Shown piece after piece: positions 3,978 to 50,000 of a DNA stretch of 64,000 nt; positions within the stretch are counted from its first letter, which is position 1; every line of letters begins with the position of its first letter. Under the pieces are notes generated by a model that saw only the letters and a list, made by a program, of their open reading frames with translations, was not told the DNA's origin and made no database searches. The stretch is from Owenia fusiformis (Eukaryota; Annelida; Polychaeta; Sabellida; Oweniidae), in contig CAIIXF020000007.1 of NCBI GenBank assembly GCA_903813345.2, positions 35,990,538 to 36,054,537 of the forward strand. Direction: 5' to 3'. The position numbers were made by a program, and so were the translations under genes.

Positions 3978-5090
3978 GTACTATTTAGATTAGTATGTAC
4001 AAGTTCATGTACTTCATACTATGTGGGTGTATAAAGGAGCCACATCTGGAATAGGATGATGTAATGAGCTGATCTGATCTAATTGATCACAAGTTTTTCC
4101 GCCTCTGAGGAATACGGCTTCATTATGTGTTTTTTGATTAGCTACTAGAAATAATAAACGAATAATTGTAAATTTAAATGAAATTATGAACCAAAATATA
4201 GTTCCCCAGTTGACTGATAATTTAATTGGTTGCATAATTCAACACTTATTTCGTATATTTTTACGTATTATTTTTTAAGTAATGCAAAATAGCAAGGAAA
4301 TCTGTTTGCGATAAAGAGAGAGTGCATCACACTGAGCAAAATTTCTAAAAACGATGAAAAACTACAAATTGTGAAACCTTTGAAAGCAAATAAGGTATGT
4401 GGTATAATCAGAAATGATAATCGATATGTGTTTATCTGTGGTATGATTCAATAGAAATGATTGGGTTATTCCTGAAGGAACATGTATTCATTTTAGGGAC
4501 AATACAAAATTTTGCAAGTATATCAATCTCAGAAAAGGTATTAACATGCAAAATGCCACCACCTGCCATTTGTTACAGATGCTGAACACCAACTGCTGAA
4601 TGCCAAACACCAACCATCAACCACTGAATACCATCCATGAAAAAGTTGGAGACTACAACAATATCTCACTACTTCTGTTGGTGACATAAAAATCATACTT
4701 GCATGAGCATTGTATTGTAAAAACATTGAGTATGACCCATGTGAAAAATTTGGAGCCAGCAATGAATGTGCAATTGGCAATGAATAAAATAAAAGACATG
4801 AAGTCAACACTCATAATTATATAGAAATTCAAGAAAATCAGATGTATGAATACCTCTTGAATGTGAACACCTAATGAACAATTTTCTCTGTCCTAATTTT
4901 GTTACACCCTATGCCAATAGTTCTGGAAGAAAGATGTTATCGCCATTGACTCACAGACATATTAAAAAAAACCTTAAACATGAACACCTACTACATCTTC
5001 GAATTCCAAGTGGTTTTGACGAGATGCACCGAGTAATATACACTGTATACACTTTTGCAAGTCCACAGATGCATTCTGATTAGGAGAGGT

Positions 5091-6663
5091 GAGTGAAAGG
5101 AGTGGGCGGGGCATGCTGAGAATACCATTCTAGGCATGGAGGATTGAGAGACTGGCCTATTGACAATCACCTATAAGAGAGATGAGTGAAAGGAGTGGGC
5201 GGGGCATGCTGAGAATACCATTCTAGGCATGGAGGATTGAGAGACTGGCCAATTGACAATCACCTTTAAGAGAGATGAGTGAAAGGAGTGGGCGGGGCAT
5301 GCTGAGAATACCATTCTAGGCATGGAGGATTGAGAGACTGGCCTATTGACAATCACCTATAAGAGAGATGAGTGAAAGGAGTGGGCGGGGCATGCTGAGA
5401 ATACCATTCTAGGCATGGAGGATTGAGAGACTGGCCTATTGACAATCACCTATAAGAGAGATGAGTGAAGGGAGGGGGTGGGGCATGCTGAGAATACCAT
5501 TCTAGGCATGGAGGATTGAGAGACTGGCCTATTGACAATCACCTATAAGAGAGATGAGTGAAGGGAGGGGGTGGGGCATGCTGAGAATACCATTCTAGGC
5601 ATGGAGGATTGAGAGACTGGCCTATTGACAATCACCTATAAGAGAGATGAGTGAAGGGAGGGGGTGGGGCATGCTGAGAATACCATTCTAGGCATGGAGG
5701 ATTGAGAGACTGGCCTATTGACAATCACCTATAAGAGAGATGAGTGAAGGGAGGGGTGGGGCATGCTGAGAATACCATTCTAGGCATGGAGGATTGAGAG
5801 ACTGGCCAATCGACAATCACCTTTAAGAGAGATGTGGAAAGGAGTGGGCGGGGCATGCTGAGAATACCATTCTAGGCATGGAGGATTGAGAGACTGGCCT
5901 ATTGACAATCACCTATAAGAGAGATGAGTGAAGGGAGGGGGTGGGGCATGCTGAGAATACCATTCTAGGCATGGAGGATTGAGAGACTGGCCTATTGACA
6001 ATCACCTATAAGAGAGATGAGTGAAGGGAGGGGTGGGGCATGCTGAGAATACCATTCTAGGCATGGAGGATTGAGAGACTGGCCAATCGACAATCACCTT
6101 TAAGAGAGATGAGTGAAAGGAGTGGGCGGGGCATGCTGAGAATACCATTCTAGGCATGGAAGATTGAGAGACTGGCCAATCGACAATCACATTTAAGAGA
6201 GATGAGTGAAGGGAGGGGGTGGGGCATGCTGAGAATACCATTCTCGGCATGGAGGATTGAGAAACTGGCCAATTGAAAATCACCTTTAAGAGAGATGAGT
6301 GAAAGGAGTGGGCGGGGCATGCTGAGAATACCATTCTAGGCATGGAGGATTGAGAGACTGGCCTATTGACAATCACCTATAAGAGAGATGAGTGAAGGGA
6401 GGGGGTGGGGCATGCTGAGAATACCATTCTAGGCATGGAGGATTGAGAGACTGGCCTATTGACAATCACCTATAAGAGAGATGAGTGAAGGGAGGGGGTG
6501 GGGCATGCTGAGAATACCATTCTCGGCATGGAGGATTGAGAAACTGGCCAATTGAAAATCACCTTTAAGAGAGATGAGTGAAAGGAGTGGGCGGGGCATG
6601 CTGAGAATACCATTCTAGGCATGGAAGATTGAGAAACTGGCAAATTGACAATCACCTTTAAGA
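5091..6663. repeat. 93-bp satellite, about 17 copies
   Basis: The unit begins gagtgaaaggagtgggcggg, contains gcatgctgagaataccattc and ends cacctataagagagat. Two variants alternate irregularly: gtgggcgggg and gggggtgggg. As 93 is divisible by 3, long spurious frames run through it on the minus strand. The GGGCGGGG variant matches the GC box bound by Sp1/KLF factors. Confidence 0.97.
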
Positions 6664-7799
6664 GAGCTCAAAACAAGAAATTAGCAAAAAGTAATACTAG
6701 AGAAAATCAATACAGACAAAGATTCTAATAGCTTCTTCTTCCACAATGCATTAAGGTGAACTTATTCAAGATCAAAGAAAATATATTTCAAGGTCACCTG
6801 GAATGGGCCGGGGCAAATCATTTTTTCCATATTGTAAAGGATTTTGACAATAACATATTCACCATGAACTTTGCCACATTTCCACAATTTTATGATTTTT
6901 GTTTTATCAATGTTAATTTCATGTTTCCAGTCATTACAGAAAGATTAAAGAGTGTTTAGTGTTCAATAGAATACTGTATAAGTGGTATTTAATCTGAGTG
7001 GTTTATTTTCCGAATGGTCAAATTTCATAATTTTCCTAATTCTAATTTTCCTAATGACAAGAAACCTCCCATTGGATAACATTATAAAGATAATATTTCC
7101 GACATTTAATTTTCCGAACCTGGAAAAAATTAGGAAATAGGCAAATTAAATGATTAGGCAAAATTACCACTTATACAGTAATCAAATAGTGTCAGAAAAT
7201 GTTAAAACGACCCAATTTGGCTGAAATGAACGAAATCATCTAGATGGTCACTGCCATCTTCGACTCCAAAGGTGTTATAATACTGAAGTTGGAGCAATTG
7301 AAACCTTGTGAATCAAGATGTGTCGCTGCTACATGTGCCAATTTCTCTAAACAAACAGGAATGTATAGGTAGCTTGCATCATTCTAAATATCACTGAAAG
7401 ACAGATCCAGGAATCCATCCTCCAAGGAGACTTGTGTTCTAATATTTTGACATAAGGGCACAAGAGCACAGTATTTTGTGTGAATTATGGACCACTTTGT
7501 GAAACACCTTGAACCAAGAACATAATGAATCAAACAAATTGGAAAGAGAGCATTATACAAAAGCTAAAAGAGTGAACCACAAGAGTTCAAGCTAAAACAG
7601 TTTCATTAGGTGCAGGTCATTATTTTCTACTTAAACCTTATCAGCAATGAGGTATAACGGAAATAAATCTTTGCTATCTTGCCCAAACATAGGCCCATAA
7701 ACCTGTCGTATATATCACCATACCTATAAGTGGCCAGCAATATACTGTTACTTTCTGACCATTAAACAGTAGGTCAGCCATGCACTAAAATATAACATA
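6664..7799. other. No gene recognised
   Basis: Unique AT-rich sequence; one short open frame (6756-6959) lacks splice support. Confidence 0.5.
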
Positions 7800-8007
7800 C
7801 AGTATCCTCCCCAGGATTTTTCCTCAGGTAGGTGCAAAACTCTCATTTTCACAATTCAGACCAAAATTGGTCAAAATATGCCAATTTTTCATAATTTTTT
7901 CATAATTTTCAAGCGGGTGCAAATGAATTTTCAGGTGGATGCAAGCCTATTTCCAAAATCCCAGGTGGGTGCTGCGCCCACTTGCTTTAATGCTGGGGAG
8001 ATCACTG
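7800..8007. mobile_element. CAGTGATCTCC-family MITE
   Basis: Opposite orientation to the 21.55-kb copy; contains ggtgggtgctgcgcccac and ends gggagatcactg. Confidence 0.8.
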
Positions 8008-9503: not shown

Positions 9504-11159
9504 TAGTGTACCAGATTATCCTTTGCTAGCATTGGTATGTCACGAGCCTCATTGACAAAACATTATTCTTAAGTTGTTTTGTTATTGTAACAGATCTTGA
9601 GTATAATTATAAATACTATAGAGAAATGAAAAAACTAGTTTATTTATATATCAAAGTCCAATAAAGCACATGTTATTATTAGTTAGTGAGGTAGCACCGA
9701 AAAATGTACCCGCTTCTGAACAAATTGAGATTACTTGTTTCTTATGTATTTTTATGTGATTCTTCAGAAAATTTTAGTCTGACGTGCCGTATCCGGGGCG
9801 AAAGTTGTCAAAATTGGGTTTTTGAACCTAAAAAGGAAAATTACAGGGGGTACATTATCATCATTGAATAATTCATTCAGTTGGTCTTCAATCATCATAA
9901 TAATTTTATTGAGAGTTGATGAGATCATTTTAAGGTAGTATGCAAAGTTTCAATGGTCTGCCACTTGTGGTTGCCATGGAAACCACAATTTTTGCTGAGA
10001 AAATCCTTAATTTTGGTAAAACCTGTACCTGTACATAATATAGAATGTGGATTATTTTTCAAATCAACAGGTATCAGAACATTTTAGCATTCTCAAAATT
10101 ACCAGGGCAGTTCAAACATTTATTTAAATATAAAGGATATTGCAATTAACATAACTGGGGAGTGTCAAAGACCATACAATTATATAAGTGATCAAAAGTG
10201 GGCGTCGCCCTCATCATAGTAGATGATTGCCATTCTCTAAAAATACAGAGTTTTACTTGACTTTTGAGATACATTTATAATGATGTTCTTTGGTTATACT
10301 AAATATGAAGCATTTTTGGTAAATAATGTACATGTAAGTGTTATACTTATTGCATGGGGGAGGGGGTAGATGGGGGGGGGGTAACAGAATTGGAAGAGGG
10401 CAAAGCTAATCACCCTTAAGTATAAATCTCATCTACATAGTTCTGGATTCCATGGGGTACATCTTCTGGGTCTTCTTCACATTCATCTGAATATATCGGA
10501 TATTATAATTCTGCATGATTGGTAAGTATAAAGACCATAGAATTACGCAAGTGATCAAAATTGGGCGTCACCCTTATCATAGATTCATTCTCTATAAATA
10601 CAGAGTCTAACTTGACTTTTGAGATACATTTACATTACAACTTCTTTGATTATACTTAATATCAAGCATTTCTGGTAAGTAATGCACATTAAATTGTAAT
10701 AGTTCTTGCCTGGGGGAGGATGGGGGAGAGTAGTAACAGAATAAGGAGGGGGCAGAGGTAATCGGCCTTAAGTATAAATCTCATCTGCATAGTTCTGGAT
10801 TTCATGGGGTACATCGTCTGGGTCCTCTTCATATTCATCTCAATATATGGGATATTACAATTTACAGGATTTGTCAAACACCATACAATTACATATTAAT
10901 AAATGATCAAAAGGAGTGTCGCCCTAACAATAATAGATGATTGGTTCTTTGTATAAATACAAAATTGAACTTGACTTTTGAGATACATTCATAGTTATAC
11001 TGAACTGCTGTTATTATAATTTATGTCAAGCATTTCTGGTAAATACATCTGTGTAAGTTTTATAGTTTTTATATTGGGGCAGGGGTGAATAGTAACAGAA
11101 TTAGAATGTGTAGATCTCATCTGCCTTAAGTATAAATCTCATCTTTTTAATTCTGGATT

Positions 11160-11362
11160 TCATAGAGTACATCTTCTGGAGTTTTCTGATTCATCTCCTG
11201 GTGTTGTTATATCACCAATCTCTTGTATGAGAATATCAGTCAATACCCACTGGAAAGATATGGAGTCATTTAGTTTCCATTCAAGTCCATCTGGTGGTTC
11301 ACTACGAGGATTTGCAATATGGGCCATACAGACAATAAGTGCTTTATATGGATGAGTTGGTT
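11160..11362 (-). pseudogene. Inverted copy of the transposon gene's 3' coding end (left arm)
   Basis: A minus-strand frame open for about 67 codons reads HPYKALIVCMAHIANPRSEP, PDGLEWKLNDSISFQWVL, TDILIQEIGDITTPGDES and then frameshifts. Its tail aligns with shorter pieces in the arm blocks (SDECEEDPEDVPHGIQN, YVDEIYT, stop) at about 10416-10500 and 10766-10850 on the minus strand, and on the plus strand near 12855-12935 and 13165-13245. It is therefore read as the C-terminal part of the element's gene, duplicated and inverted in the left arm. Confidence 0.5.
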
Positions 11363-11479
11363 ACAACAATCAGACAGTCCTTCATAAGACCAACTTAGGA
11401 AAATTATCTAGAGATGAGATGAGTGTGACACCCATAATGACCTTGGAAAGGCACAAATAGCAAGTACAGAAAAAGACAT

Positions 11480-12482
11480 AAAGATGACAAAAACCGCAAT
11501 CAAAGACTTTCTTGATCCATTTACAATTGAGGATGAAGGTCATCTCTACGGTGTATCATAAGGAAAATCTGTGCCAAATGATGTCGCTGCAGATCTCATC
11601 TAATTTTAGTCAAAAGGGGAAATTGCACGAAGAGATACCATCTGAGATTAGTTGAAAAAAAGATTTCATGATCTAATAAAACATATGAAATTGAAAACTA
11701 TACCAGCAAACTACAGCAGCAACAGTGACAGTAATAAAGTACTCAGAAGAAGCTTATAAGATGGTTCAAATTCATTCTGAATGAAACATCTTTGAACAGC
11801 TTCGATCTTGCTAAGGAACATAAAATTAGCCTAGAATGTCTCCTGCAGTTCCTATTGAGCCCTGTGCCTTGGGCTCTAGGAACACTGACTGGACTTCTTG
11901 CAAGAACAGAGAAACGCATCCCTATGCATGAACATGTACCAACAAGTGCCAAAGGGAAAGGACCAAAATTTGTAATAGAACCCAGCAAGAAAAAGAAAAC
12001 TTCTAAATGTATACAAATCATAAGGAAAACAAACCCCAACTATCCCAAATCATAATTCAACTTGAAAGGTAGTTTTGTTTCTGGATCTGGCGGAGACTTT
12101 TTTCAAGATTCTACAATTGCAGATTGATTAGTTTTTGTATGTGATAATTACATCAAAAATTCTATAAAGGAACCTGAAAGAGGGGAGGGACACCTTGCCC
12201 TATTTAAGGTAGAAAAACAAGAGTCCCTAAAGATTGGATTTAGTTCTTGTATGATGATGAAAACAAAAAGCAAATACAGGAAAGTGTGCTGCTGGATACT
12301 TGAGTTGGAAACAAATGAAGACTGATGTCAGTGGTATTTCCTCCAATATAGACCCTGACATATATGCAGCCTTCCTAGCACTTCACACATTCACAGATGA
12401 AGTGTCATGCAGAAGGGGCAATAGCAAAAGCACCTTTTTAAAAGGCAAAGGTGGAGCGCCATATACAGATGCACTCAACTGA
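11480..12482 (+). pseudogene. Decayed transposon-associated gene (core of the foldback element)
   Basis: Plus-strand fragments in changing frames with stops: KDFLDPFTIEDEGHLYGVS near 11500, an open stretch 11792-12052 (FDLAKEHKISLECLLQFLLS, PVPWALGTLTGLLARTEKR), and 12300-12482 (ISSNIDPDIYAAFLALHTFT, later FLKGKGGAPYTDAL). These resemble motifs I associate with uncharacterised, high-copy invertebrate proteins (NPF plus SSG segment, LSPVP(W/Y)xLxTxDG, ALHxxTGCD followed by GKGK). The canonical GCD is altered to DEVSC. Stops and frameshifts show that this copy is inactive. The family link is from memory and would need a search. Confidence 0.5.
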
Positions 12483-13962
12483 ATGACTCTCAAATCTACA
12501 AGTGTAATGGTATACTAGTATTATCCCACATGATATTGTTAATATATTAACATCGGGGGGTGAATGAAAATGATCAGACTATGATATTAATACTTAAAAC
12601 TGACTGGCCATTGGCTCTGCCCCCTCCCATTTCTGCTACTACCCCCTTGCCCCCCCCACAGGGAATAACTATTACAATACTAAATGTAATCAAAGAAGTT
12701 TTAATTCAAAAAATTAATCTTAAAGTCAGGTTAAACTCCATATTCATAGAGAATGAATTATCTACTATTGTTAGAGCAACACCCACTTTTGATCACTTAT
12801 GTAATTGTATGGTCTTTGACACTTACCAATCATGTAAATTGGAATATCCCATATATTGAGATGAATGTGAAGAAGACCCAGAAGATGCACCCCTTGAAAT
12901 CCAGAACTAAGTAAATGAGATTTACATTTAAGGCTTATTAGCTCTGCCCATTTCCAATTCTGTAACTCTCCCCCCCCATCCTCCACCCCCAGACAATAAA
13001 TATTACAATTAGATGTACATATATAACTTACCAGAAATGCTTGACATTAACTATAAATCAAAGATGTTTTTAAGTAAATGTACTTCAAAAGCGACGCCCA
13101 CTTTTGATCACATGTGTAATTCTATGGTCTTTGACACTTACCAACCATGTAAATTCTAATATCTTATATATTGAGATGAATATAATATGACCCAGAAGCT
13201 GTACCCTATGAAATCTAGAACCATGTAGATGAGATTTACACTTAAGGCTGATAAGCTCTGCCCCCTCCCAATTCTGTTACTACCCCCCTCCCCCTGTATC
13301 CCAATGCAATAACTATAACACTTAGATGTAAAAATGCTTGATATTAAGTATAACCAAATAAATTAAATATAAATGTATCTCAAAAGTCAAGTAAAACTCT
13401 GTATTTATAGAGAATGGCAATCAACTACTATTATGAGGGCGACGCCCACTTTTGACCACTTATGTAATTGTATGGTCTTTGACACTTACCAGTCACATAA
13501 ATTGCAATATTCTTTCTCCTTAAACAAATGTTTGGACAGCCCTGGTGATTTTAGAGTGCTAAAATGTTCTGATATCTGTTGATTTGAAAAATAATCCACA
13601 TTCTATATTATGTACAGGTACAGGTTTTACCAAAATTAAGGATTTTCTCAGCAAAAATTGTGGTTTCCATGGCAACCACAAGTGACAGACCATTGAAACT
13701 TTGCATACTACCTTAAAATGATCTCATCAACTCTCAATAAAATCAATATGATGATTGAAGACTAACTGAATGAATTATTCAATGATGATAATGTACCCCC
13801 TGTAATTTTCCTTTTGAGGGTCAAAAACCCAATTTTGACAACTTTCGCCCCGGATACGGCGCGTCAGACTAAAATCTTCTGAAGTATCACATAAAAATAC
13901 ATAAGAAACAAGTAATTTCAATTTGTTCAGAAGCGGGTACATTTTTCGGTGCTACCTCACTA

Positions 13963-15579
13963 CCTATATGTCATTACGCAAAACATGTTATCATACAAAA
14001 ATATATCAAATATGGGGGCCACATGCGTCATAACATAACGTGAGAAATGTGGCAAAATTGCATAATTGGGGTTGAATTGTAGAGTGTACATTGTGTGTCA
14101 TCTCTCGGGGATAAAAGCTTGATAAAATAATTCTGGGGGATCCTGATATCAAGAATTGATTTCTCAGATCGATGTTGCAAACTAGAAAAATAAAATGATT
14201 GTCCTTTTCTCTATTAAATTCAACTGCACAAGAAAAATCATTAGAAGATCATGATCCAAGGCATATTTTGACTAACTCATCATACAATTGTATAAATTGA
14301 ACACAAAGAAGCAAAACAGAATTGGAAAGGTAGCTTTTGTATGTATAAGGATTTCATTAGCAGCAGGCAACAGGCGATTTTCACCAGATTTTCACAAAAT
14401 CGCCTGTTGTTTTTAGGGACTTTTCAACTTTTCCATGTTAAATTCATGATTTCCATTAATTTTGCCTGTTGTTTTCATTTATTTAGCCTGTTGTGAGAAA
14501 TTTTAGCGAAACCCCTGATGTACAAAGAATACCTTGAAATGAGACGCCTACGCTGTGATAATTTGAGACGAAGCAATCCTGAGTGATTGTGGGATTAGCG
14601 TAGAATCAGGCACTGAGGATAAAGCAACAGAGAATGCTTAATAATTATCTGGAGGAAATAAATGATCTTACTTAAGGACTTCGCTTGATTATTGCAAGTT
14701 TTACATCTAGTGCAAAATAAAATCATAGAATCTAGGTCTTTATACTGATATATGTGCTAAAGTTACATGATTGTTTTATGTCACCGTGTAGAGATGGTGA
14801 CATAATGAAGTTTGTTAAAGTTTATACATATATAGATCATTGAAATATCATCCAGTAATATGTAAACTAAAATCTCTTTATCCTGAATCTCAGAGGCCAG
14901 AAGTAATACTGAGTCAAATTTTTCCAAAGGGTATTATTACCTGTTACAAATACATGCAATATTCTGTACCATAAGCAGTAAAGAACATTCAGTGTATTAT
15001 TCAGAAAATCTAATACAGTGACTCCCAAAGGGTTGGTAACAATAAATGGTTTCATTGGAGAAGGAGAGAATATCCTTGGATGTATATGAATAAAATTATG
15101 AATATGAAATAATAATGTATGGTTCACAGACAACATAGATTTCTGGTGACATAGACAAGGATTATATAGACAAGTCACTCAAGTGACAAAGACAAGTAAT
15201 TCAGGTGACATGGGTGACATAAACAAGTCTTTTAGTCTCAGGTGACATACACAGACAAGTCAATTGGGTGACATAGACAATTTACACAGTTGTGGTTTAA
15301 ATTATAAATAAAAAATGGAAAAAGACAAGTAAACCAAGCTTACTGTAAACAAAATGGCAAACTGCCTACAACTAACCCTGGGGGTCTCTCTTAGTACTAT
15401 CTACTATGCAGTATATATGTACATTCAGAAAATATGATAAGTGTTTGACAAGTATGTATGTCAAGGATGACAGATCATAATATGATAAATCAAAACTACC
15501 TTATACAGGCAAATGTTCAAGAGTGTAAACTTTATACATAATCGATCAAGGCCAATATTCTGTGCTAAGATGATATACC
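13963..15579. other. No gene recognised apart from one MITE
   Basis: Beyond the MITE at 14.35 kb I see only scattered gtgacata phrases (15120-15290), possibly a decayed relative of the adjacent 29-bp array. Confidence 0.5.
14346..14517. mobile_element. CAGGGGTTTC MITE, flanked by ATGTA
   Basis: About 172 bases with attagcagcaggcaacagg at one end and the inverted agcgaaacccctg at the other. ATGTA occurs on both sides. Ends and short duplication fit a hAT variant with a 5- or 6-bp duplication. Confidence 0.75.
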
Positions 15580-16111: not shown

Positions 16112-16904
16112 CGTATTGAAACAAACAGTAAAGCATTATTTTAAAGACATCATGGTGGAAACCTTTCTAGTCAAATATGGTTAAAAGATTCATCATATAT
16201 AAACAAAAATGACATGACATTTTGTTGATATAAAAACATCTGGAACTCAAAACTGCAAAAAAATATTTAGAGTCGACAATCAATAATTCCTTGGAATCCA
16301 TATATAGAAAACAAAATAGCAATAAAGTAAAACAATAGTAAGCACAAATAGAAATATGTTTTTAAATCGCATCCTGATCCCTGAAGTTATGTGAGGTCCC
16401 AATAATTAATTTATCATTGTCATACTGGACAGATCACCTGCACAACTGACATATGTGTACATGTATACTGGGGATGAGAGGTCAAATATAGACAATGTGT
16501 CAGTCGCCAGCCACTGTTCTGTTATTTTAAACAATTCTAGATATTTACATATATGTGCATGCACAAGAATCAAATGGAAAAATGTTACAAAAAACAGAAC
16601 AAGAAAATCAAACAACCACTCATAAGGACAAAAATATCCCAAATTATGATCTAGCTGGTAATGAAACAATATCTTATACCTCCTCATTCCTGACACTATG
16701 TAAGAGACAATAATATCCGGCACAAATCTAATAACTTTTAAAATTGAAATACAGATTCTGTATCGCAGAGTATGAAACCAGGATTGATTGACTTTATATC
16801 AACCAATCAAACTGCAAAAAAATTTCATTTTAAAAAATTGTAATTAGCAGGGAGACAATATGAGACAATGGCAACATGAACTGTGACATACCGGCATACA
16901 TATA

Positions 16905-17105
16905 GCGATCTCCCAAGCATTAAAGCAAGTGGGCGCAGCACCCACCTGAGATTTTAAAAACAGGCTTGCACCCACCTGAAACTCCATTTGCACTCACTTG
17001 AGAATGAGAAAAATCATGAAAAGATGGGCATATTTTGACCAATTTCAGTCTAAATTGTGAAAATTAGAATTTTGCACCATCTTGAGAAAAATTCCTGTGG
17101 AGAAC
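16905..17105. mobile_element. CAGTGATCTCC-family MITE (decayed ends)
   Basis: Interior matches the family (gtgggcgcagcacccacctg, catattttgaccaatttcag); the right end is degraded. Confidence 0.75.
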
Positions 17106-19316
17106 AAAGCAGTGTCAGAGTCTAGTTAGGAGATGAAGCTCTCTTTTAGGAAGCGCAATCAAACTATTGTATTGGAAAAAGTAACTTAAACAACAAATAA
17201 ACAATAAAATTTTATGATGAATTTAGGGCCATCAATAAAATATTTCAGAACATGCTATTCACAGACACAAATATGTGTGAACTAAAAAAAAGAATAGAGA
17301 TCGATAACAATTAACCCGGAAAGTATTACACAATGATAAATGAGATCATTTTGTAATGCTGCATTAGAACATTGCACTGATCATACACTGCAAATCCCAA
17401 TAGATTCATCAGGGCATATATTCCAAAACAAAAGGAATTACCACTTTGGCTAATATACTCAAGTTTGATACATTATGGCAATCCTGAATTATCAAACTAA
17501 ATCCTGAATTTGATATCATGAATATGCAAACCAGAATAAATAATGCTGAATCAGCAGTCTTGAATTAGCAAGTATTAGCATGATATGATCTCTCTAGTAG
17601 CCTTTTCAAGGTCATTACCATGACAATATCATTGCCATGACAATACTGATAAACAAGCATGTTTTACAAGAATATTAGCCCTCTTTGACACATATAATGA
17701 TCAATGTTCCTGGTTCAAACCATTCCTTGCTTACTCATCTATGATCAACTCTCAAATCTTCAAGGTCATTACCATGACAATGTTATTACCATGACGATAC
17801 CAACAAACAAATGCTGTACTTACTGTAGCGTACTGCTGGTGAGGAAACATGTGACGTTGGTTTATTTTAGCGAGAATAGCTGGCTAAAAGCTTTGCTCAT
17901 CCTAATCCAGAATACAGTCACCTCACCACACCTACACTTGCTTAACACTTTCTGGCTGCATCAAACCAGTGTTCAAGAGGCCACTATATATAGCAGAATA
18001 CCCAAACATAAACAATAACCTTGACTGAGACATTTTGGGGAATTTCGTTCCGATAGTCAAAAGAATTACGACATTTTAGGGCATTCTATATAATCCAAAG
18101 TGTTGATTTCATGTATAAATAACCATTTCTCATAATTTCCATTGTATTTCATATTCATCACCATGGTAATTCGTTGCCAGGTTACAACCATAGAATGGCC
18201 AGATTACGAGCCCTGCCTATCCTAAATCCTAACAGCACTTGAGCAAGGGGTGTGAAAATATAAGCCTACTAAGCAGGTTTTGCTTAACTTGGCTGATCAC
18301 AATAGAAGAAAACAAGAAAATAGACTATAAAATTGTGGTTTACCAATGGTCTGTAATGGGCTCTGGATGTAGTATTGTCCATGGTTATTATTTTTTGCTG
18401 GTATTTTCCAGTTCTGTTTTATCGTCCCTTATTCTGTTTGTTCCATGGAACTATAATTAATCCTATGGCCTGTTGCACTGATGCTGACACTCCAGAGGTG
18501 ACACGTCACAAAGTACTGACACACCAGTGTTGACACACCACAATCAGCCTTGAACGTCTCTGAATTGTACTGATGTTACCACTGTATTATTGTGTATCTT
18601 AACAAACAACATATCTGTACATGTACATGTAGCTATAAGATAACCTTCACTTCAAGAAATGAACCACATAAGATTTACTTAAATATAGTAGAAATGATGC
18701 TTCTATTTTTAGCATACAAAATTATTTAAAAGTTTAAGGATGTACAGTAAGTATTCAAAAAACAACAAGGCAAATTTATTTTTTCTTAGTCTACAGGTGC
18801 TAACAATTGTATTCAATATTGTATTCAATTACAATATCAAAACGGTAGTAACAAAATATACAATAGTCAAGACTATTCAGACTGACTATAACCAAACTGA
18901 CTATAACCAGACTGACTATCACTATGGCTCATACCTGACTTGAATAACCAAGATGCGAGTAGAAATAATCTTGATTTACGTCATTGAAAATTCAAAATTC
19001 AGTCAAAGTAATATCATATTTGAAATCTACATGTAAAATTACATCTAGAAATGTGGTTTTAAAAAGTGTTTATCAACTTTGAAAAATTTATTTTCTTTGA
19101 AAAGGTGACTTCTAGCTCGGGGAGATTCGCCATAGACCCCTAGACCCCTGCTATAAAATCACAAAAAATGAAATATCTTTTCTTTTAGTGGACAGATAAT
19201 ATTTTGCTTTACTGGACATATTTTCATTAGTATAAGTATCAGACACATAAGGGTTATATGAAAATTGAGCCACTTAAATTGATAATATTCAAGTTTAAGG
19301 GAACTTTCTTATATAC
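17106..19316. other. No gene recognised
   Basis: Includes three short copies of a 14-base gactgactataacc repeat near 18880-18920 and repeated tcattaccatgacaat phrases near 17610-17790. Open frames here lack splice signals. Confidence 0.5.
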
Positions 19317-19688: not shown

Positions 19689-19861
19689 CAGGGGTTTCAT
19701 TAGCAGCAGGCAACAGGCGATTTTCTCCGTTTGTTTTCACAAAATCACTTGTTGTTTTTAGGGACTTTTCAACTTTCCATGTTAAATTTATGATTTCCAT
19801 TAATTTTGCCTGTTGTTTTCATTTATTAAGCCTGTTGTGAGAAAATCTAGTGAAACACCTG
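19689..19861. mobile_element. CAGGGGTTTC MITE, flanked by ATTTAC
   Basis: Same family; the 6-bp ATTTAC is found at 19683-19688 and 19862-19867. Confidence 0.82.
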
Positions 19862-20337
19862 ATTTACTATTTATAAAATTCTAAATCACTAGAGAACGTT
19901 ATGAGAAATTGTTTATCCAATAATTACCCCACATTAAAATTGACCATTTACACAATAGCACGTCTACTATTTTATTTTATAATTTACCAGTTCATCATTT
20001 TATGAACTATTGATCAATGAGTTGTCAAACCAGCAGAATATTTCAATAGAGGTTATGTGACTTAGATGTGATGATAAATCAGCTGCTGACAGTCAATCCA
20101 ACAAAACAAACATGTTATAGGCCTATATATCAGCTGTATGTACATGTATATACATACATACCAAATGTCTATACATAAAGCTGTGCCACAATAATTAGCA
20201 ACATTTTCACCATATTATTTCAGTCTATGTTACTTAAATGGCATTCTCCAGGTGCAGAACTACAGATATGATCCATTCTTTAAGCATTCCTGCCTTCATG
20301 TTTGGTTTGGAGGATGACTTCATGAAAGCTTCCATGA

Positions 20338-21553: not shown

Positions 21554-21753
21554 CAGTGATCTCCCTAGCATCTATGAAGCAAGTGGGCACCTGAGATTTT
21601 GAAAATAGGCTTTCACCCACCTGAAAATCCACTTGCACCTACTTGAAAATAAGAAAAATCATGAAAAATTGGCATTTTTTGACCAATGTTGTTCTGAATT
21701 GAGAAAATGAGAATTTTGCACCCTTCTGAAAAAAAATCCTCAGGAGATCACTG
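21554..21753. mobile_element. CAGTGATCTCC MITE with 13-bp flanking direct repeat
   Basis: Inverted ends CAGTGATCTCCCTAGCAT / ggagatcactg bound about 200 bases with cacccacctgaaaatccact and tttgaccaatgttg. AAGTTGTACCATG stands directly before (21541-21553) and after (21754-21766). Confidence 0.85.
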
Positions 21754-27607: not shown

Positions 27608-28733
27608 TTAAATCATCAGCCCTTTTGTAGCAGGGGCAGTCCTAGAAGCAAGAGGGAGGGGGACAAAAGTTTTAATTGAAAAAAATTAATTTCTGTTCTT
27701 GTAGAGAAAAAATTGGGGCACTGAAACAAACAAATGGGCCCCAATGTTGAATATGAGGCCCCCTTCCTATACAATCAGATCCAAGAAATAATGCCAAATG
27801 CCAAGGGGGGCTGGGCCTATGTCCGCCATTGTGTAGCATCTTCAAGTGCCCAGTCTTCAGCGAATGATGATGATTGTAACTAATTTCAAGAAATGTTTCT
27901 ATTTTTATATCAAATATCTGTTTCTGTTTGTCCCTGTATTTTGCAACCAGGATAGAGCTATATAATACTAAAAGCGCATGAATATTCATCTTCTTATCTT
28001 CTATATAACCAAAAAGGTTCACACCAAGTTTAACTTCAAACTTCATAAATCAGCGAGACTCAATGGGGTCAAGTGGAGGAGATTTGGTCAGAGAAGAGTG
28101 AAACCTTTACAGGGTCAAGTGCCTTGATGGATCAAACTGTCAAACAGAAGCTAGATCAACACTCAAGTTCAAGCAATATGTTCTATATCAAGCCACAAGT
28201 AAGATCTCCAAGATCTTTTTTTATAGTTTGCAGCTTTACAAGCAGATGTGTACAGGAGCTTCGTTAGCAGCAGGGAACTGGAAAATGCTGTTTTTCAGAA
28301 AATGCCTGATGAGATGAATAATTTGTCAAAACATTCCATGTCAAAATAATACTTTCTAAAAAACTGGCTGCTGTTTTTCATTATTTTGCCTGTTAAAATT
28401 AAAATACATTGAACTGAACTGTTTTCAAACACACATGGTTATATGAAAATTAAATAAAATAAAACCAGTAAACAAATATGTATATTAAATCATATAAGTA
28501 TAAAACATATTAACCAAAATGAACCAAATTTCTACATAAACTATAATAACCCAAACCCCAGATAGTAGAAGTAATAATTTCTACCCTCTAACTAGAATAG
28601 CTTGCATCACCTTTCATGTGAGTTAAAATCTGAAATGAAAGACAGCTACTTAATCTGTCTTGATTTTGTTTTGAAAAGGGAAGAGCTCTGGTAAGAATAT
28701 TTATTTAGAAATCAATGTCAATACAGGGGTTTC

Positions 28734-28908
28734 ACTAGAATTTCTCACAACAGGGTAAATAAATGAAAACAGGCAAAATTAATTGAAATCATAGATTTAA
28801 TTTTTTAAATTAAACATGGAAAAGTTGAAAAGTCCCTAAAAACAACAAGCGATTTTATGAAAACAACTGGTGAAAATCACCTGTTGCCTGCTGTTAATGA
28901 AACCCCTG
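28734..28908. mobile_element. CAGGGGTTTC MITE, flanked by CAATA (unit 1 copy)
   Basis: Inverted orientation relative to 19.7 kb; CAATA on both sides. Confidence 0.82.
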
Positions 28909-28919
28909 CAATATCAATA

Positions 28920-29270
28920 TAGTAAAACCAATATATCTGAACACCTCTCTGATCTGAACACCTCTGAATGTTGTGAACACTTTTTCTCTGACCACATATT
29001 GTTTTCTCCCATTGACTCACATATCAAGATTATAAGTTATTGAATGATTTGAAGTGCAATATAGGATATATTCTGCTCGAGAAATTCCGTATTGGAATGA
29101 AACGATCAACTGGAAGAATCTTAGTAGCAATACAAATTGGTACAGCACAACAACTGACCAATCAGAAAGCTTCATTTTACAGATCATACGATAAACCTTA
29201 ATATGAACACCTGATAATCTGAATACCTTTGGGCGGCCCCAGTGGTGTTCAGACAAGACAGGTTTTACTG
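28920..29270. mobile_element. CAGTAAAACC MITE, longer variant (unit 1)
   Basis: About 350 bases with tagtaaaaccaatatatctg and caggttttactg ends; includes about 190 bases of interior not seen in the short copies. Confidence 0.78.
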
Positions 29271-29644
29271 TACAATTTTTAACACAGATTTTTGAAGGTT
29301 ATAAAGATAAATAAATCAATCATATAAAGATGTTTTGTCAAGATGTTTTATGGTGAACTTTCCTATAATGCCAAGTAATATGACATCAATGTCAAGTCTA
29401 AGACCTAGAGATGACATCAACCATGGCCTAATTAACAGCTATCAGTAAACAATGGAGTCATATTCCATTCACAGTTTATATAGCAACCATTTGGATATTG
29501 CCTGTCTATGTCTCATGTATCATTACAGTATTTTCTTAGAAATGCTCTTAGTTATAAGACAGAGTCATCTATAACTTTAACTGAATGGGTTAATATAACA
29601 CAGATTTTATTTTAAAACCTACCATCTTACAACTCTCTGTTATA

Positions 29645-29870
29645 CCAATGAATGCCAGAATTTGGCCTTTTTGACCATTACTGGACCTTTAAGGCCCTAT
29701 TTTTTAATTTTAGGCCAAATTTAATTTTGAAGAAAATGGGCCTCAAATTTTCAAAATTTGGGTCCACTTTTTGGTTTTAGGGGCCCATATTTTTTTTCAG
29801 GAAGCGCAGAATTTTTTTATCAGCCCTGAAATTTGACCCCCCCTCTTGTTGGTTCCCAGATCAGCCCCTG
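29645..29870. mobile_element. CACTGGCGGATC MITE, truncated left end
   Basis: Right end ttggttcccagatcagcccctg; interior aggccaaatttaattttg and gggcccatatt. Confidence 0.6.
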
Positions 29871-30131
29871 TCCACAGTCTGTTCGTTGAAATACACATCA
29901 TTCTCAAGCATTAACTCGTATAAAAGGCTGTGGTGTGTACCTGTATGTCTGTGTACCTATGCACACAAAAGAACACAGGGCTCCTCCAAGGAGGGATTTC
30001 TGGCTCTGTCTTTGAGTGTAAAATACGGAATATACCAATGAGGTATTGCTCGCCAAATATGGCGATAACCAAGATATAATAATAATAATTAGAAAAAGAA
30101 GGACTCCTGTTTAATCAGGGATGTTACACAC

Positions 30132-30251
30132 CTTTACCTTATCAGACTCAGCCACTTTTGTCCCATTGACTTTAATTTCATCTGAGCTTTCCGTTTTGAC
30201 TTCTTTCTCTTCTGTCACTTTCATAATGCTTTCCTTCCTTTTTCTAGATCT
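30132..30251 (-). CDS. Lys/Glu-rich internal exon, copy 1 of a tandemly duplicated exon
   Basis: Minus strand: acceptor ttttatctaag, then 120 bases in phase 0-0 (40 codons) and donor gtgtgt; an alternative donor gtaaag lies 6 bases earlier. The peptide begins RSRKRKESIMKV and continues through TEEKEVKTESSDEIKVNG to SDKVK. The basic start resembles a nuclear localisation signal and the rest is acidic and lysine-rich, typical of disordered parts of chromatin or nuclear proteins. The other frames contain stops. The exon recurs at 33240-33359 with only three amino-acid differences and no stop, which supports coding function or recent duplication. The gene is not recognised. Confidence 0.5.
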
Positions 30252-31676
30252 CTTAGATAAAAAATGTCCTCTTTAAATCCTAATCAGATTCCAAAACTAA
30301 TCCAGAAACTAGTTCATAAAATACTACAAGCCTATTTCGATGTACAGTTGTATATCCCTGATTAAATCTAACTGAATCAGGACCTTTATTCCTTGGACTA
30401 AGTTGACTGGTAAAATGCAGCAATAGATGCAAGAGAGGGGAGCAAGAGAGGGGAGCAAACATTTTGATTGAAAAGAAAATTCTGTGCATGCATGTACTGA
30501 AAAAATTGGGGTACTGAAAAAACTGAATGGGCCCCAATTTTGAATATGAGGCCCACTTTCTATAGAATTAGGCCCAAGAAATAATGCCAAGTAAAGTCAG
30601 TGTGTTATCCATATTTATTCTGTTGCTCAGTTTCTATGGTAAGGAAGCAAATTTTGATCCAAATTTTTTTCGCCCATCTTGAGGGGGGGGGGGCTGGGCC
30701 TATGTCCGCCATTGCGTATTATCTTCAAATGCTCAATCTTCACTAGAATATTCTAAAGTCCAGAGAATGATCATGATTGTAACTAATTTCAAGAAATGTT
30801 TCTATTTTTATATCAAATTTCTGTTTCTGTTTGTCCCTGTATTTTGCAACCAGGATAGAGCTATATGATGCTAAAGCACATGAATATTCATCTTCTTATC
30901 TTCTATACAACCAAAAAGGTTCACACCAAACTTCATAAATCAGCAAGACTCAATGGGGTCAAGTAGAGGAGATTTGGTCAGAGAAGAGTGAAACCTTTAC
31001 AGGGTCAAGTGCCTTGATGGATCAAACTGTCAAACAGAAGCTAGATCAACACTCAAGTTCAAGCAATATGTTCTAAATCAAGCCACAAGTAAGATCAACA
31101 AGATCATTTTTTATAGTTTGCAGCCTTACCAACAGATGTGAACAGGAGCTTCGTTAGCAGCAGGGAACTGGAAAATGCTGTTTTTCAGAAAATGCCTGAT
31201 GAGATGAGGAATTTGTCAAAACATTCCATGTCAAAATAATACTTTCTAAAAAACTGGCTGCTGTTTTTCATTATTTTGCCTGTTTTCAGAAATTAAATTG
31301 AAACTTGTGAAATATGCTATACATTGAAATATGTTTTAAACACATATGGTTATATGAAAAGTAAATAAAATAAAACCAGTAAACAAATATGTATATTAAA
31401 TCATATAAGTATGAAACATATTAACCCAAATGAACCAAATTTCTACATAAACTATGATAACCCAAACCCCAGATAGTAGAAGTAATAATTTCTACCCTCT
31501 TACTAGAACAGCTTGCATCACCTTTCATGTGAGTTAAAATCTGAAATGAAAGACAGCTACTTAATCTGATTGGGCAATATCTGCTCAAAGATCTTTCTTT
31601 AACATATTTGTCTTGATTTTGTTTTGAAAAGGGTAGAGCTCTGGTAAGAATATTTATTTAGAAATCAATGTCAATA

Positions 31677-31860
31677 CAGGGGTTTCACTAGAATTTCTCA
31701 CAACAGGGTAAATAAATGAAAACAGGCAAAATTAATGGAAATCATGAATTTAATTTTTTAATTTAACATGGAAAAGTTGAAAAGTCCCTAAAAACAACAA
31801 GCGATTTTGTGAAAACAACCGGTGAAAATCACCTGTTGCCTGCTGCTAATGAAACCCCTG
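31677..31860. mobile_element. CAGGGGTTTC MITE (unit 2 copy)
   Basis: The duplicated partner of 28734-28908, carried along by the segmental duplication. Confidence 0.82.
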
Positions 31861-31877
31861 CAATGCAATATCTATAT

Positions 31878-32227
31878 AGTAAAACCAGAATATCTGAACA
31901 CCTCTCTGATCTGAACACCTCTGATTGTTGTGAACACCTTTTCTTTGACCACATATTATTTTCTCCCATTGACTCACATATCAAGATTATAAGTTATTGA
32001 ATGATTTGAAGTGTAATATAGGATATATTCTTCTCGAGAAATTCCATATTGGAATGAAACGATCAACTGGAAGAATCTCAGTAGCAATACAAATTGGTAC
32101 AGCACAACAACTGACCAATCAGAAGGCTTCATTTTACAGATCATACAATAAACCTTAATATGATCACCTGATAATCTGAATACCTTTGGGTGGCCCCACT
32201 GGTGTTCAGACAAGACAGGTTTTACTG
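31878..32227. mobile_element. CAGTAAAACC MITE, longer variant (unit 2)
   Basis: Duplicated partner of 28920-29270. Confidence 0.78.
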
Positions 32228-32883
32228 TACAATTTTTAACCCAGATTTTTGAAGGTTATAATTAAAAGATAAATAAATCATAAATATAAAGATGTTTTGT
32301 CAAGATGTTTTATGGTAAACTTTCCTGTAATGCCAAGTGATATGACATCAATGTCAAGTCTAAGATGTAGAGATGACATCAACCATGGCCTAATTAACAG
32401 CTATCAGTAAACAATGGAGTCACATTTCATTCACAGTTTATATAGCAACCATTTGGATATTGCCTGTCTATGTCTCATGTATCATTACAGTATTTTCTTA
32501 GAAATGCTCTTAGTTATAAGACAGAGTCATCTATAACTTTAACTGAATGGGTTAATATAACACAGATTTTATTTTAAAACCTACCATCTTACAACTCTCT
32601 GCTATACAAGAACGAATGAATGCCAGAATTTGGGCAGAATAGTTTTCACAAAATTTGTAATCTATCATACCCATCGTGGGATCACCAGACTGTACTATCT
32701 CTCGAGTACAGGCCCTCTCAAGTTACCAGGAGTAAGTAATCTACCGACCCCCCCCCATCATTCCTTTATAACCTAGACCTATGGTTATGAGATGAAGGGG
32801 CAGGGTCAATATTTGCAACAGGAATGGTGAATAATATGAACAATTGATTTAATGAACAATCTCTTCTCTTTTGTGGGATCTAC

Positions 32884-33153
32884 CACTGGCGGATCTTTCC
32901 TTCCTTGGGTGGGCCCAGAAAACAAAAATTGGGCCCAAAAAATGTTGGGCATAAGACCCTATAAAGTGGGCCTTTTTGGCCATTACTGGACCGTTAAAGC
33001 CTTATTTTTTAATACTAGGCCAAATTTTGAAAAAAGGCCTCAAATTTTCGAAATTTAGGGGCCCAAAATTTTCGGTCAAGCAAGTGCAGAATTTTTTTCT
33101 CTGACCTGAAATTTGCCCCCCCCACCCTTTGTTGGTTCCCAGATCCGCCCCTG
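32884..33153. mobile_element. CACTGGCGGATC MITE
   Basis: Ends cactggcggatc / gatccgcccctg; interior holds gggcccaaaa and a decayed attattttta run. Related pieces end at 29870 and fill 34213-34465. Confidence 0.72.
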
Positions 33154-33239
33154 ATGTCCACAGTCTCTCTGTTGAAATACACATCATTCTCAAGCATTAG
33201 AAAAAGAGGGACTCCTGTTCAATCAGGGATGTTACATAC

Positions 33240-33359
33240 CTTTAACTTATCAGACTCAGCCACTTTTGACCCATTGACTTTAATTTCATCTGAGCTTTCC
33301 GTTTTGACTTCTTTCTCTTCTGTCACTTTCATAATTCTTTCCTTCCTTTTTCTAGATCT
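33240..33359 (-). CDS. Lys/Glu-rich internal exon, copy 2 of a tandemly duplicated exon
   Basis: This is the second copy of the exon at 30132-30251, again 120 bases with phase 0 at both ends. Compared with copy 1 it changes Ser to Arg (KERIM), Thr to Ser (NGSKVAES) and Val to Leu (DKLK). The upstream donor option is destroyed here (gtaaag has become ttaaag), leaving gtatgt as the only donor. Because the exon is symmetric, including one or both copies would keep the reading frame. By position it would be transcribed before copy 1. It could be a mutually exclusive or skipped exon, or a silent copy; the sequence cannot decide. Confidence 0.45.
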
Positions 33360-33680
33360 CTTAGATAAAAAATGTCCTCTTTAAATCCTAATCAGATTCC
33401 AAAACTAATCCAAAAACTAGTTCACAAAATACTACAAGCCTATTTCGATGTTCAGTTGTATATCCCTGATTAAATCTAACTGAATCAGGACCTTTATTCC
33501 TTGGACTAAGTTGACTGGTAAGATGCAGCAATAGATGACCAAGTAGGCGTTATCCTCAATGATGGATAGAGCACCAAGACTGACAGAACTCACATGACCT
33601 TAGTAAATGGCTGAGTAATCTGATACTCTAGCAAGATTGGGGCTGTATGTGAATGCCATGCACTTTGCTATATGCATATA

Positions 33681-47000: not shown

Positions 47001-50000
47001 TACATAGGATATCCTATGGTTTATGAGTGATATGATATTCATGTATGGATATTGATATTTATTCCATAATACTACTGTTTTCCCAGGAAAATATGAAGGA
47101 ATAAAAATCGTATTGAATCGTATTACATGAAAAAATTGTATTGTCCCCGGGAAAAAATCGTATTGGAGCGTATTACATGAAAAAATCGTATTGTTCCCGG
47201 GAAAAAAATCGTATTGGAACGTATTCACCTATTTTTGGTTTTCCTGTTATTTTTAACCTTGGCTAATTGATAAAAGTATTTCAAAATGTAACATTTTAGA
47301 GGAATGCATTATGGAATAAATAGGTTATTTCTGGTCGAATTGAATATGGGTTTCATTCCTTGGAAAATATGATATTGACCTTGGGAAATATGATATTGAC
47401 ACTCGGTCGCTGCGCTCCCTCGGTCAATATCATATTACCCTTCGGTCAATATCATATTGTCCCTCGGAATAAAACCCATATTCAATCCCTCCCAGTAAAT
47501 AACCTATATTTATCACATGGTATGTAAAATTCCAGTGATCTGATTGGTTGTAGCCTTCCTGGTATTTCCCGTATCACGACCATGTAACTAGTGGTAACTA
47601 ATTACTGACGTCATATAAGTGAAAGTTCCAGTGTAGTGACGTTACACTATTCAAACTGTTCAGAAATATATGACGTCACATACATTGATACCTAGGAAAT
47701 GACGTTATAACAATAAACTATGTTCTGTATTGTAGACTATATTGTAAGTAAAAGAACTTCAATCTATCATAAACGGAAACTACATAAAAACATACTTTAT
47801 ATGATAAAATTGTCATCAACGTTTCAGCTGATGTGATACGAAAATATTCCACTCAAGCAAAAAGGTATCAACACTTAAGCTTTGCTTTCGTGGTGATACA
47901 ATTTTTACTTTCGTGGAACATTTCCCGTATCACATGCTGAAACGTGTGATAACTGATAGTGCATGTGCTTGCGTAGTGAAAGAGATATAAAAATCATATC
48001 ATGAGTAAATCTGAGGATTTTCTTTTTATTCCATAGCTAAAAATGATCCAAATCAAACTATCAAAATGACTGATGGGTGATTATTACTATACTGTCTATC
48101 TTGTTTTGGGTCAAAGTAGCAAAGGTCCTTTAGCCATCGGATATGATGTTGCATGGTGTAAAGGCTGTATTCTATGGTTTAACGAAAATTTGCAACCCAC
48201 TGGTTCCAAAATCGACCACTTTTATTTTGGCACGATATCCTATGAATATCACAGTAACTATGGAACAATATCAACTGAATCATGTATGTCCTTCTACCCT
48301 AACAGTAAGTACATGACTGTAGCTTTTTAACGTCTTTATGTACATGGATTTTAATGTCATAATTCACCCAGATTTGACCAAACCAAATTATCTACAATTT
48401 TCTGTCTGTCTATTTAATATTTTTATCTGACCATCTTCTACGATTTTGAGGTGAATAAAGCATAAATATGCCAACATCATTGAGTATTAGGTTTGAGAAT
48501 CATATTGTATGGCCACGTCATGGGGTATTTGGTTTGAGTATCATATTGTATGACCACGTCATGGGGTATTTGGTTTGAGTATCATATTGTATAAACATGT
48601 CGTGGTTTTTTGATTTGAGTATCATATTGTATGACCACGTCATGGGGTATTTGGTTTGAGTATCATATTGTATAGCCACATCATGGGGTATTTGGTTTGA
48701 GTATCATATTGTATGACCACGTCATTGGGTATTTGGTTTGAGTATCATATTGAACTCTGATAAACCCCTTAGTGTATCATTTAGTGGGAACATCATTTGT
48801 GGGATACAGATTTCTGGGATACCATCCACATCATTCACAATCTCTGTTCCATTCACCAGGTGGCAGGTCGAGCAATCGTTGTACCAGAATCCTCCACCAT
48901 TTTCATGTGCACAATTCGTTGTAGTTTTGTTGTCGTTGTCAAGATCCCAGCTGGAGAATCGTGATCCATTCAGTTGCCATGCCAACATGGAGGGATCGAT
49001 CATACTGATGTTCCAGTTTCCCGGAATGGGTGTTATGTTCGGTCCTTCTATGGCAGAGAATGATATGCTATAGCCGTTCTGTTCACTTGCGATCTTAAAA
49101 TATTTTAGGAGGTACATCACCTGCAATGACAAGTTTAGTTTATATTTTACTTATGAATTCAAATAAGGGGAGGGGGAGGAATTCAACATTATCAAGAGAG
49201 GCACAGCCAAGATTTAAAGTCAGGCGAGGCAAATAATTAATTGGTGAGGCAAATCGATGTCAAATGAGGTAAATTACAACTTCATTTCCACAATTTTCTT
49301 TGGATAAATGTGGAAAAATACACTTCAGTAAAATTTTGATGGGGCATTTGCTACACTAGTCATAATCAATGGCAGGAATTCAATGCTGTGTTATCAAGGC
49401 ATAATTTTGATTGATCAATTGCGAAGAATACAATTGTCATATTCTGTTATTCATCACATCTTTCTGTTTCGCAAGTTACTCTGATTGGATGAGATTATTT
49501 TCAGATCTAGTGTCATCTGAAAGGAGTGAGTTATCACTGCCATATTTTATATTATTTATATTTCTGCATTGTATTTTATATCAAATGCATTGTTTGGATA
49601 TGTATATGAAATCAGAAATAAAAAAATTAAATATAAAAAAAACAAATACTGTAAATGAAAAATAACTGTCTTCATAAAGTGTGATATCAGTTGGGTTATA
49701 GGATGGGTTCCGATTCACAGGTTAGGTGGACCTGAGATGAGGGATCCCCTGTAAAGATGTATTGCCATGAAGTTGTAAAATGAAATTTTTTAGGCAAAAT
49801 AACTGATCTAGACGATGGCCTTGAAAAACTAGAAATCGCTATTTTGAGCCGTCACATTGAATTATGAATGAATGTTAGTCGAAATAATGCAATTCTCAAT
49901 TAATATATCACTCAAATATCACATTACATTGAAATGAACAATTGAATCATGAATAATAGAATAATGCGTATTATCTGAATGTCATCTATTGTTATTCGTG

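Follow-up and report, generated by a model that had tools for sequence, protein, structure and literature searches.

The closest described systems are Galileo, a Drosophila transposon of the P superfamily, and the foldback-like element Tetris. In the accessible portions of the Galileo reports, its terminal inverted repeats (TIRs) are long and internally repetitive, and they grow through tandem repeats as well as by taking in internal sequence (PMC4168063; PMC3573991). In Drosophila willistoni, the last 69 bp of the ORF, and more than 500 bp in another copy, lie within both TIRs, so that the 3' end of the ORF also stands as an inverted copy at the opposite terminus (PMC4168063, excerpt). The D. 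mojavensis copy with the longest TIRs joins tandem-repeat growth with recruited internal sequence, and a repair or conversion model was proposed for TIR extension in this species (PMC3573991, excerpt). Tetris of Drosophila virilis is composed of a terminal domain, tandem repeats of ~220 bp in varying number and an inner domain, and is described in the available part of its report as having no apparent coding capacity (PMC4079207). Plant MULEs with tandem TIRs likewise carry extra tandem terminal sequence and were still amplified, according to the part of the source at hand (PMC3310237).

The locus described here lies within a 64-kb window, by which we mean the whole stretch of DNA analysed; all results on the element concern one copy at this single locus. 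Positions 9680–13966 show the structural marks of a foldback-like DNA transposon: long terminal inverted repeats that themselves contain tandem repeats. This unit is most likely a jumping gene, and the copy is dead. Its arms consist of a gene tail and 3' flank, repeated in tandem and set in inverted orientation, as a reading made from the sequence only had proposed. The element is filed as a variant of a known foldback-like architecture, built like Galileo and Tetris, and this known kind of architecture apparently occurs here in a transposon different from Galileo. With Galileo it shares both routes of TIR growth and the inverted ORF end, and with Tetris the order of a terminal domain followed by tandem repeats. 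In contrast to Galileo, the gene tail and its stop lie inside the tandem unit itself, and unlike in the plant MULEs, where the repeated part is the TIR, the repeated part here is the 3' end of a gene (PMC3310237, excerpt). The sequence-only reading had called the architecture unusual, which holds in part, but Galileo TIRs already contain an ORF 3' end and tandem-repeat growth. Among the literature matches listed, with few subscription papers and in partly accessible texts, no tandem TIR units carrying the gene's own tail and stop were found, which is not proof of their absence.

Anatomy of the inverted arms

The outermost inverted repeat (9680–10097 against 13549–13966) spans 418 nt and is 97% complementary. 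Inverted ends had been placed at 9684 and 13962; they are real, and the inverted match extends 4 bp further out on both sides. The arms are collinear: the minus-strand gapped alignment of 9680–10978 with 13966–12722 gave 83.3% identity over 1318 columns (~1.3 kb), in agreement with inverted tandem blocks. From the core outward, either arm is composed of a 3' coding stretch of the gene, three tandem units and a terminal domain (Table 1). The GC-content of the element is 0.353, compared with 0.356 in 10 kb of flank and 0.344 in the full, AT-rich window.

Table 1. Coordinates of the element and its parts within the window. The bounds of units L1 and R3 are cuts made for the alignment.
Feature	Positions	Strand	Remarks
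Whole foldback-like element	9680–13966	.	4287 bp; GC 0.353
Candidate 3-bp target-site duplication TAT	9677–9679	.	Matches 13967–13969
Left TIR terminal domain	9680–10097	+	97% complementary to 13549–13966; ends TAGTTAGTGAGGTAGCACC...
Unit L1	10098–10496	-	Gene tail with intact frame and 3' flank; adjoins terminal domain; pairs with R3
Unit L2	10497–10854	-	Tail frame intact, 4 aa differences from L1, and 3' flank; pairs with R2
Unit L3	10855–11197	-	Innermost left; tail frame-broken; runs on into upstream coding sequence
Inverted further 3' coding stretch	11184–11360	-	59 open codons, upstream of L3 tail; no Pfam or PDB match
Core, remains of plus-strand gene	11380–12480	+	Open stretches broken by stops and frame changes
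Diverged right-arm counterpart of left inverted coding stretch	12466–12599	+	Smith-Waterman score 81
Unit R1	12560–12859	+	Innermost right; most of tail gone
Unit R2	12860–13172	+	Tail with in-frame stop, and 3' flank; gap of 53 alignment columns
Unit R3	13173–13548	+	Tail frame-broken, and 3' flank; adjoins terminal domain; unit homology to ~13510
Right TIR terminal domain	13549–13966	-	Reads inward TAGGTAGTGAGGTAGCACC...; identity step at 13557

Each unit combines a coding tail of ~75 nt ending in TAA with a 3' flank. About three tandem blocks of ~350 bp per arm had been noted, and three were found in each, starting near 11195, 10839 and 10487 in the left arm (spacing 356 and 352 bp) and near 12560, 12860 and 13175 in the right (300 and 315 bp). 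The tails of all six units face from the core towards the terminus, as had been reported for several of them, and the frame is open in two of the six, the outer left units L1 (DECEEDPEDVPHGIQNYVDEIYT) and L2 (DEYEEDPDDVPHEIQNYADEIYT).

The L3 tail is joined to the open stretch 11360–11184 (minus strand) and shares its frame up to a point where L3 lacks 2 nt that the other units have. The main argument for deriving the repeated tails from the end of a gene is this contiguity with upstream coding sequence. A Smith-Waterman comparison of 11400–11113 (minus) with 12300–12605 (plus) aligned 11293–11145 with 12466–12599 at a score of 81. The highest score was 54 among 1000 dinucleotide shuffles and 41 among 393 other segments of the window, so none of them reached this value. 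The diverged right-arm copy runs in the same direction as the plus-strand core gene. The 3' end of the gene is therefore present in both arms, and the longer inverted piece at 11362–11160, which the sequence-only reading had assigned to the left arm, is real but not unique to that arm.

Identity between the arms changes abruptly near the termini. A change-point scan over 12770–13966, where 121 of the 1181 aligned columns were mismatched, placed the best single change point at 13557, with 14.1% mismatch inside and 2.9% outside. The likelihood ratio was 43.8, compared with a maximum of 18.8 over 500 permutations, and the step described the data better than a logistic gradient (log-likelihood −368.3 versus −378.3). 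Such a sharp step suggests that the outer ~410 bp of both ends were homogenised. Unit homology stops near 13510 (13090–13510 aligned with 12775–13162), so that the step lies ~45 bp past the junction of unit and terminal domain; this position speaks for a tract of recombination or conversion rather than for a constraint boundary, although constrained termini might likewise produce the step.

Target site, core gene and search for relatives

No exact direct repeat longer than 3 bp adjoins the ends. The flanks permit TAT with ends TAG(T/G)TAGTGAGG, or TA with ends GTGAGGTAGC or G(T/G)TAGTGAGG, and TA with ends GTGAGG fits equally well. A 3-bp match by chance occurred in 2.3% of draws at one fixed boundary and in 14% over seven symmetric boundaries. 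An imperfect 12-bp direct repeat (ACATGTTATYAT, 9668–9679 and 13983–13994, 11 of 12 positions identical) was matched in 12 of 3000 random draws, a total that counts draws skipped for lying near the element. It abuts the left end exactly but is 16 bp away from the right one, and is a possible alternative target-site duplication. Given the chance rates, the alternative TA ends and the 12-bp repeat, the target-site duplication is ambiguous.

This ambiguity bears on whether the locus could be a local rearrangement, an inverted duplication of a chromosome stretch that included a gene end, with no transposon involved. Such an origin would suit a single copy, and a search of the rest of the 64-kb window found no second one; the exact 22-base terminal pattern likewise had no match in viral contigs. 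However, the inverted ends are bounded, the outermost part is the best conserved, the identity step falls at 13557, and the core is enclosed by inverted termini and, as weak evidence, by a 3-bp direct repeat. Taken together, these features make a simple rearrangement unlikely.

Open stretches on the plus strand of the core were found at 11484–11558, 11738–12055 and 12261–12482. They bear out the decayed plus-strand gene of the sequence-only reading as a series of interrupted frames, but their assignment to a single transposase gene is inferred from motifs. At this composition, the chance per start is ~0.0004 for an open run of 105 codons and ~0.012 for one of 59 codons, odds that are not decisive across 64 kb.

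Protein searches, which had been proposed as a check, gave no family. With Pfam at E up to 10, none of five queries matched (three pieces of the core, which are short and decayed, and two reading frames from the arms), and the left-arm coding piece had no family at E up to 1. A PDB search with two core pieces and the left-arm piece returned no match. Specifically, the short, decayed core pieces showed no P-type transposase with a THAP domain in Pfam at E up to 10, and no XPG-type nuclease domain was matched in Pfam or PDB by the pieces searched, all of which lie outside core stretch 12063–12248. P elements have target-site duplications of ~8 bp, and no exact repeat of that size abuts the ends here. 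The element differs from Galileo in a candidate duplication of other than 8 bp, and its three core pieces had no Pfam match of any kind.

Scans confirmed by tblastn found no relatives of the core in viral contigs (two pieces) or in genome contigs (one piece). A degenerate pattern for the motif HAFTGCD occurred in 102 stretches of genome contigs and 7 of viral contigs. When four core or arm pieces were compared with these 109 loci by tblastn at E 0.01, none matched; the pattern matches were taken as chance and the loci rejected as relatives.

Core stretches such as SPVPWALGTLTGLLARTEK and PDIYAAFLALHTFT bear a putative resemblance to the proteins of invertebrate XPG-nuclease-like Academ (AcademX) transposons. 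In the available excerpts, AcademX has target-site duplications of 3–4 bp and is tied to a nuclease (PMC10045372), and Academ has been amplified in bivalves (PMC10294476). The candidate TAT at 9680/13966, which has a chance of 0.02–0.14 of arising at random, would fit the 3–4 bp of AcademX (PMC10045372, excerpt). Academ membership of the element is a lead, not a result.

Possible function and history of the repeated units

Repeated gene tails might be functional, as extra transposase-binding sites or as alternative gene ends. Among L1, L2, R2 and R3, the tail diverged less than the remainder of the unit in all six pairs, which are not independent, and the best-conserved 20-column stretch (the TTGTATGGTCTTTGACACTT region) had a permutation p of 0.046. 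THAP-domain sites sit in the tandem repeats of Galileo, according to the accessible part of PMC3688188, and AATAAA or ATTAAA was present in four of the six units as cut. Against this, both signals are missing from L2 and R1, and the tails of R2, R3 and L3 are stopped or frame-broken. Variable tail sites fell at codon positions one, two and three in 5, 7 and 4 cases, with no excess at the third position, and these counts and the frame breaks gave no clear sign of coding constraint on the extra tails.

The units also have no convincing stretch in common with the terminal domain. Shared sequence was limited to words of 10–11 nt (E 0.16 or worse). In Smith-Waterman comparisons of the six units with the terminal domain on both strands, between 34 and 190 of the 200 plain shuffles attained the observed score in 11 of the 12 cases. 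The lowest count, 2 of 200 for R2 on the plus strand, is unconvincing because 12 tests were made. In Tetris, by contrast, repeats and terminal domain have 37 bp in common (~80%; PMC4079207, excerpt). The sequence evidence for units as binding sites is at most a hint, and a functional role for the tails appears doubtful. Somewhat less probable still is a more specific version, in which the element would belong to a non-Galileo superfamily, possibly Academ, and units with the last codons and stop of its own gene, amplified and set at both termini, would act as arrays that bind the transposase or would yield hairpin RNA directed against its own transcript. If true, the end of the gene and the end of the transposon would form one module.

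Pairwise identity among the six units ranged from 67 to 86% (L1-L2 82.3%, L2-R2 82.8%, L1-R3 85.6%, R2-R3 79.2%). Two pairs appeared in the free tree with moderate ultrafast bootstrap support, L1 and R3 (68) and L2 and R2 (77), whereas L3 and R1, both on long branches, stayed unpaired. Over columns with letters in all of L1, L2, R2 and R3, 10 informative sites supported L1R3|L2R2, 2 supported L1L2|R2R3 and 3 supported L1R2|L2R3. An AU test of four trees kept the fully collinear tree (p = 0.949) and rejected separate arm growth (p = 0.006) and crossed pairing (p = 0.044); the tree pairing L1 with R3 alone survived (p = 0.098).

The collinear pairing and the AU rejections indicate either that the array arose first and was later copied to the other end, or that the arms were converted collinearly. 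The simplest reading would be that the unit was triplicated in tandem before the whole end was copied in inverted orientation; arms that grew independently and were then converted collinearly could give a tree of the same shape. The repeated duplication and inversion of the gene end assumed by the sequence-only reading is not favoured, since the unit phylogeny points to triplication and then a single inverted copying. Separate tandem growth of each arm once inverted repeats existed, which that reading implied, is very improbable: unit identities within arms are close to those between arms, and Galileo TIRs vary their repeat number independently (PMC3573991, excerpt), but the AU test and the informative sites (10 versus 2) oppose it, and both arms have three units.

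The best explanation, to which we give a probability of roughly 0.7, is that the tandem array arose first, that inverted copying then lengthened the TIRs into the gene, and that the outer ends were re-homogenised. It draws on the 97% outer TIR, the collinear arms, the contiguity of L3, the right-arm coding stretch, the unit pairing and the identity step; for either route of TIR growth, Galileo provides a precedent. In the ancestral element, the gene would have ended beside the right terminus, and a piece of ~350 bp (the last ~25 codons, the stop and 3' flank) may have been duplicated twice in tandem. The right end, comprising the terminus, the array and no less than ~150 bp of the coding sequence upstream, would then have been copied in inverted orientation to the opposite end, possibly when a gap was repaired by template switching or gene conversion, and the TIRs would have been lengthened into the gene in this way. 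Later, the outer ~410 bp of the ends may have been made alike again, the arrays drifting meanwhile. The terminal domains would be recognition sites for a transposase supplied in trans, and the repeated units possibly weaker extra binding sites, although most likely passive.

Such growth in a second element, apparently unrelated to the first, would point to repair-driven capture of adjacent coding sequence as the general way in which long TIRs are extended. It would also speak against classifying elements by the length and structure of their TIRs. The wider biological effect is modest, and the copy is dead.

Other repeats and reading frames in the window

Two further inverted repeats were observed. 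The palindrome at 57395–58080 has arms at 57425–57704 and 57766–58045 (280 nt, 85% complementary, 61-nt spacer), with arm-like sequence extending outward on both sides as judged by eye, and looks like a foldback MITE. The hairpin at 62735–63043, with arms of 143 nt (91% complementary) and a 23-nt spacer, is probably another MITE.

Direct and dispersed repeats were also present. A large direct duplication at 27647–33537 pairs 27805–29665 with 30688–32633 (90%) and 30088–30429 with 33196–33537 (97%). Dispersed repeats of ~200 bp, 80–89% identical and in both orientations, were found at 7800–8007, 16904–17106, 21554–21753 and 54942–55147. A second dispersed family of ~180–200 bp (14349–14523, 19689–19886, 28703–28908 and 31656–31860) is 82–90% identical, with two copies per strand; one copy lies 383 bp to the right of the element and two lie inside the large duplication. 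A satellite-like tandem array of a 93-bp unit occupies 5084–6666, with 17 copies and 95% matches. Two reading frames on the minus strand, Fibrinogen_C at 48722–49147 (E 9e-11) and PAN_1 at 59650–60096 (E 2e-05), mark the window as animal DNA and are probably host gene exons.
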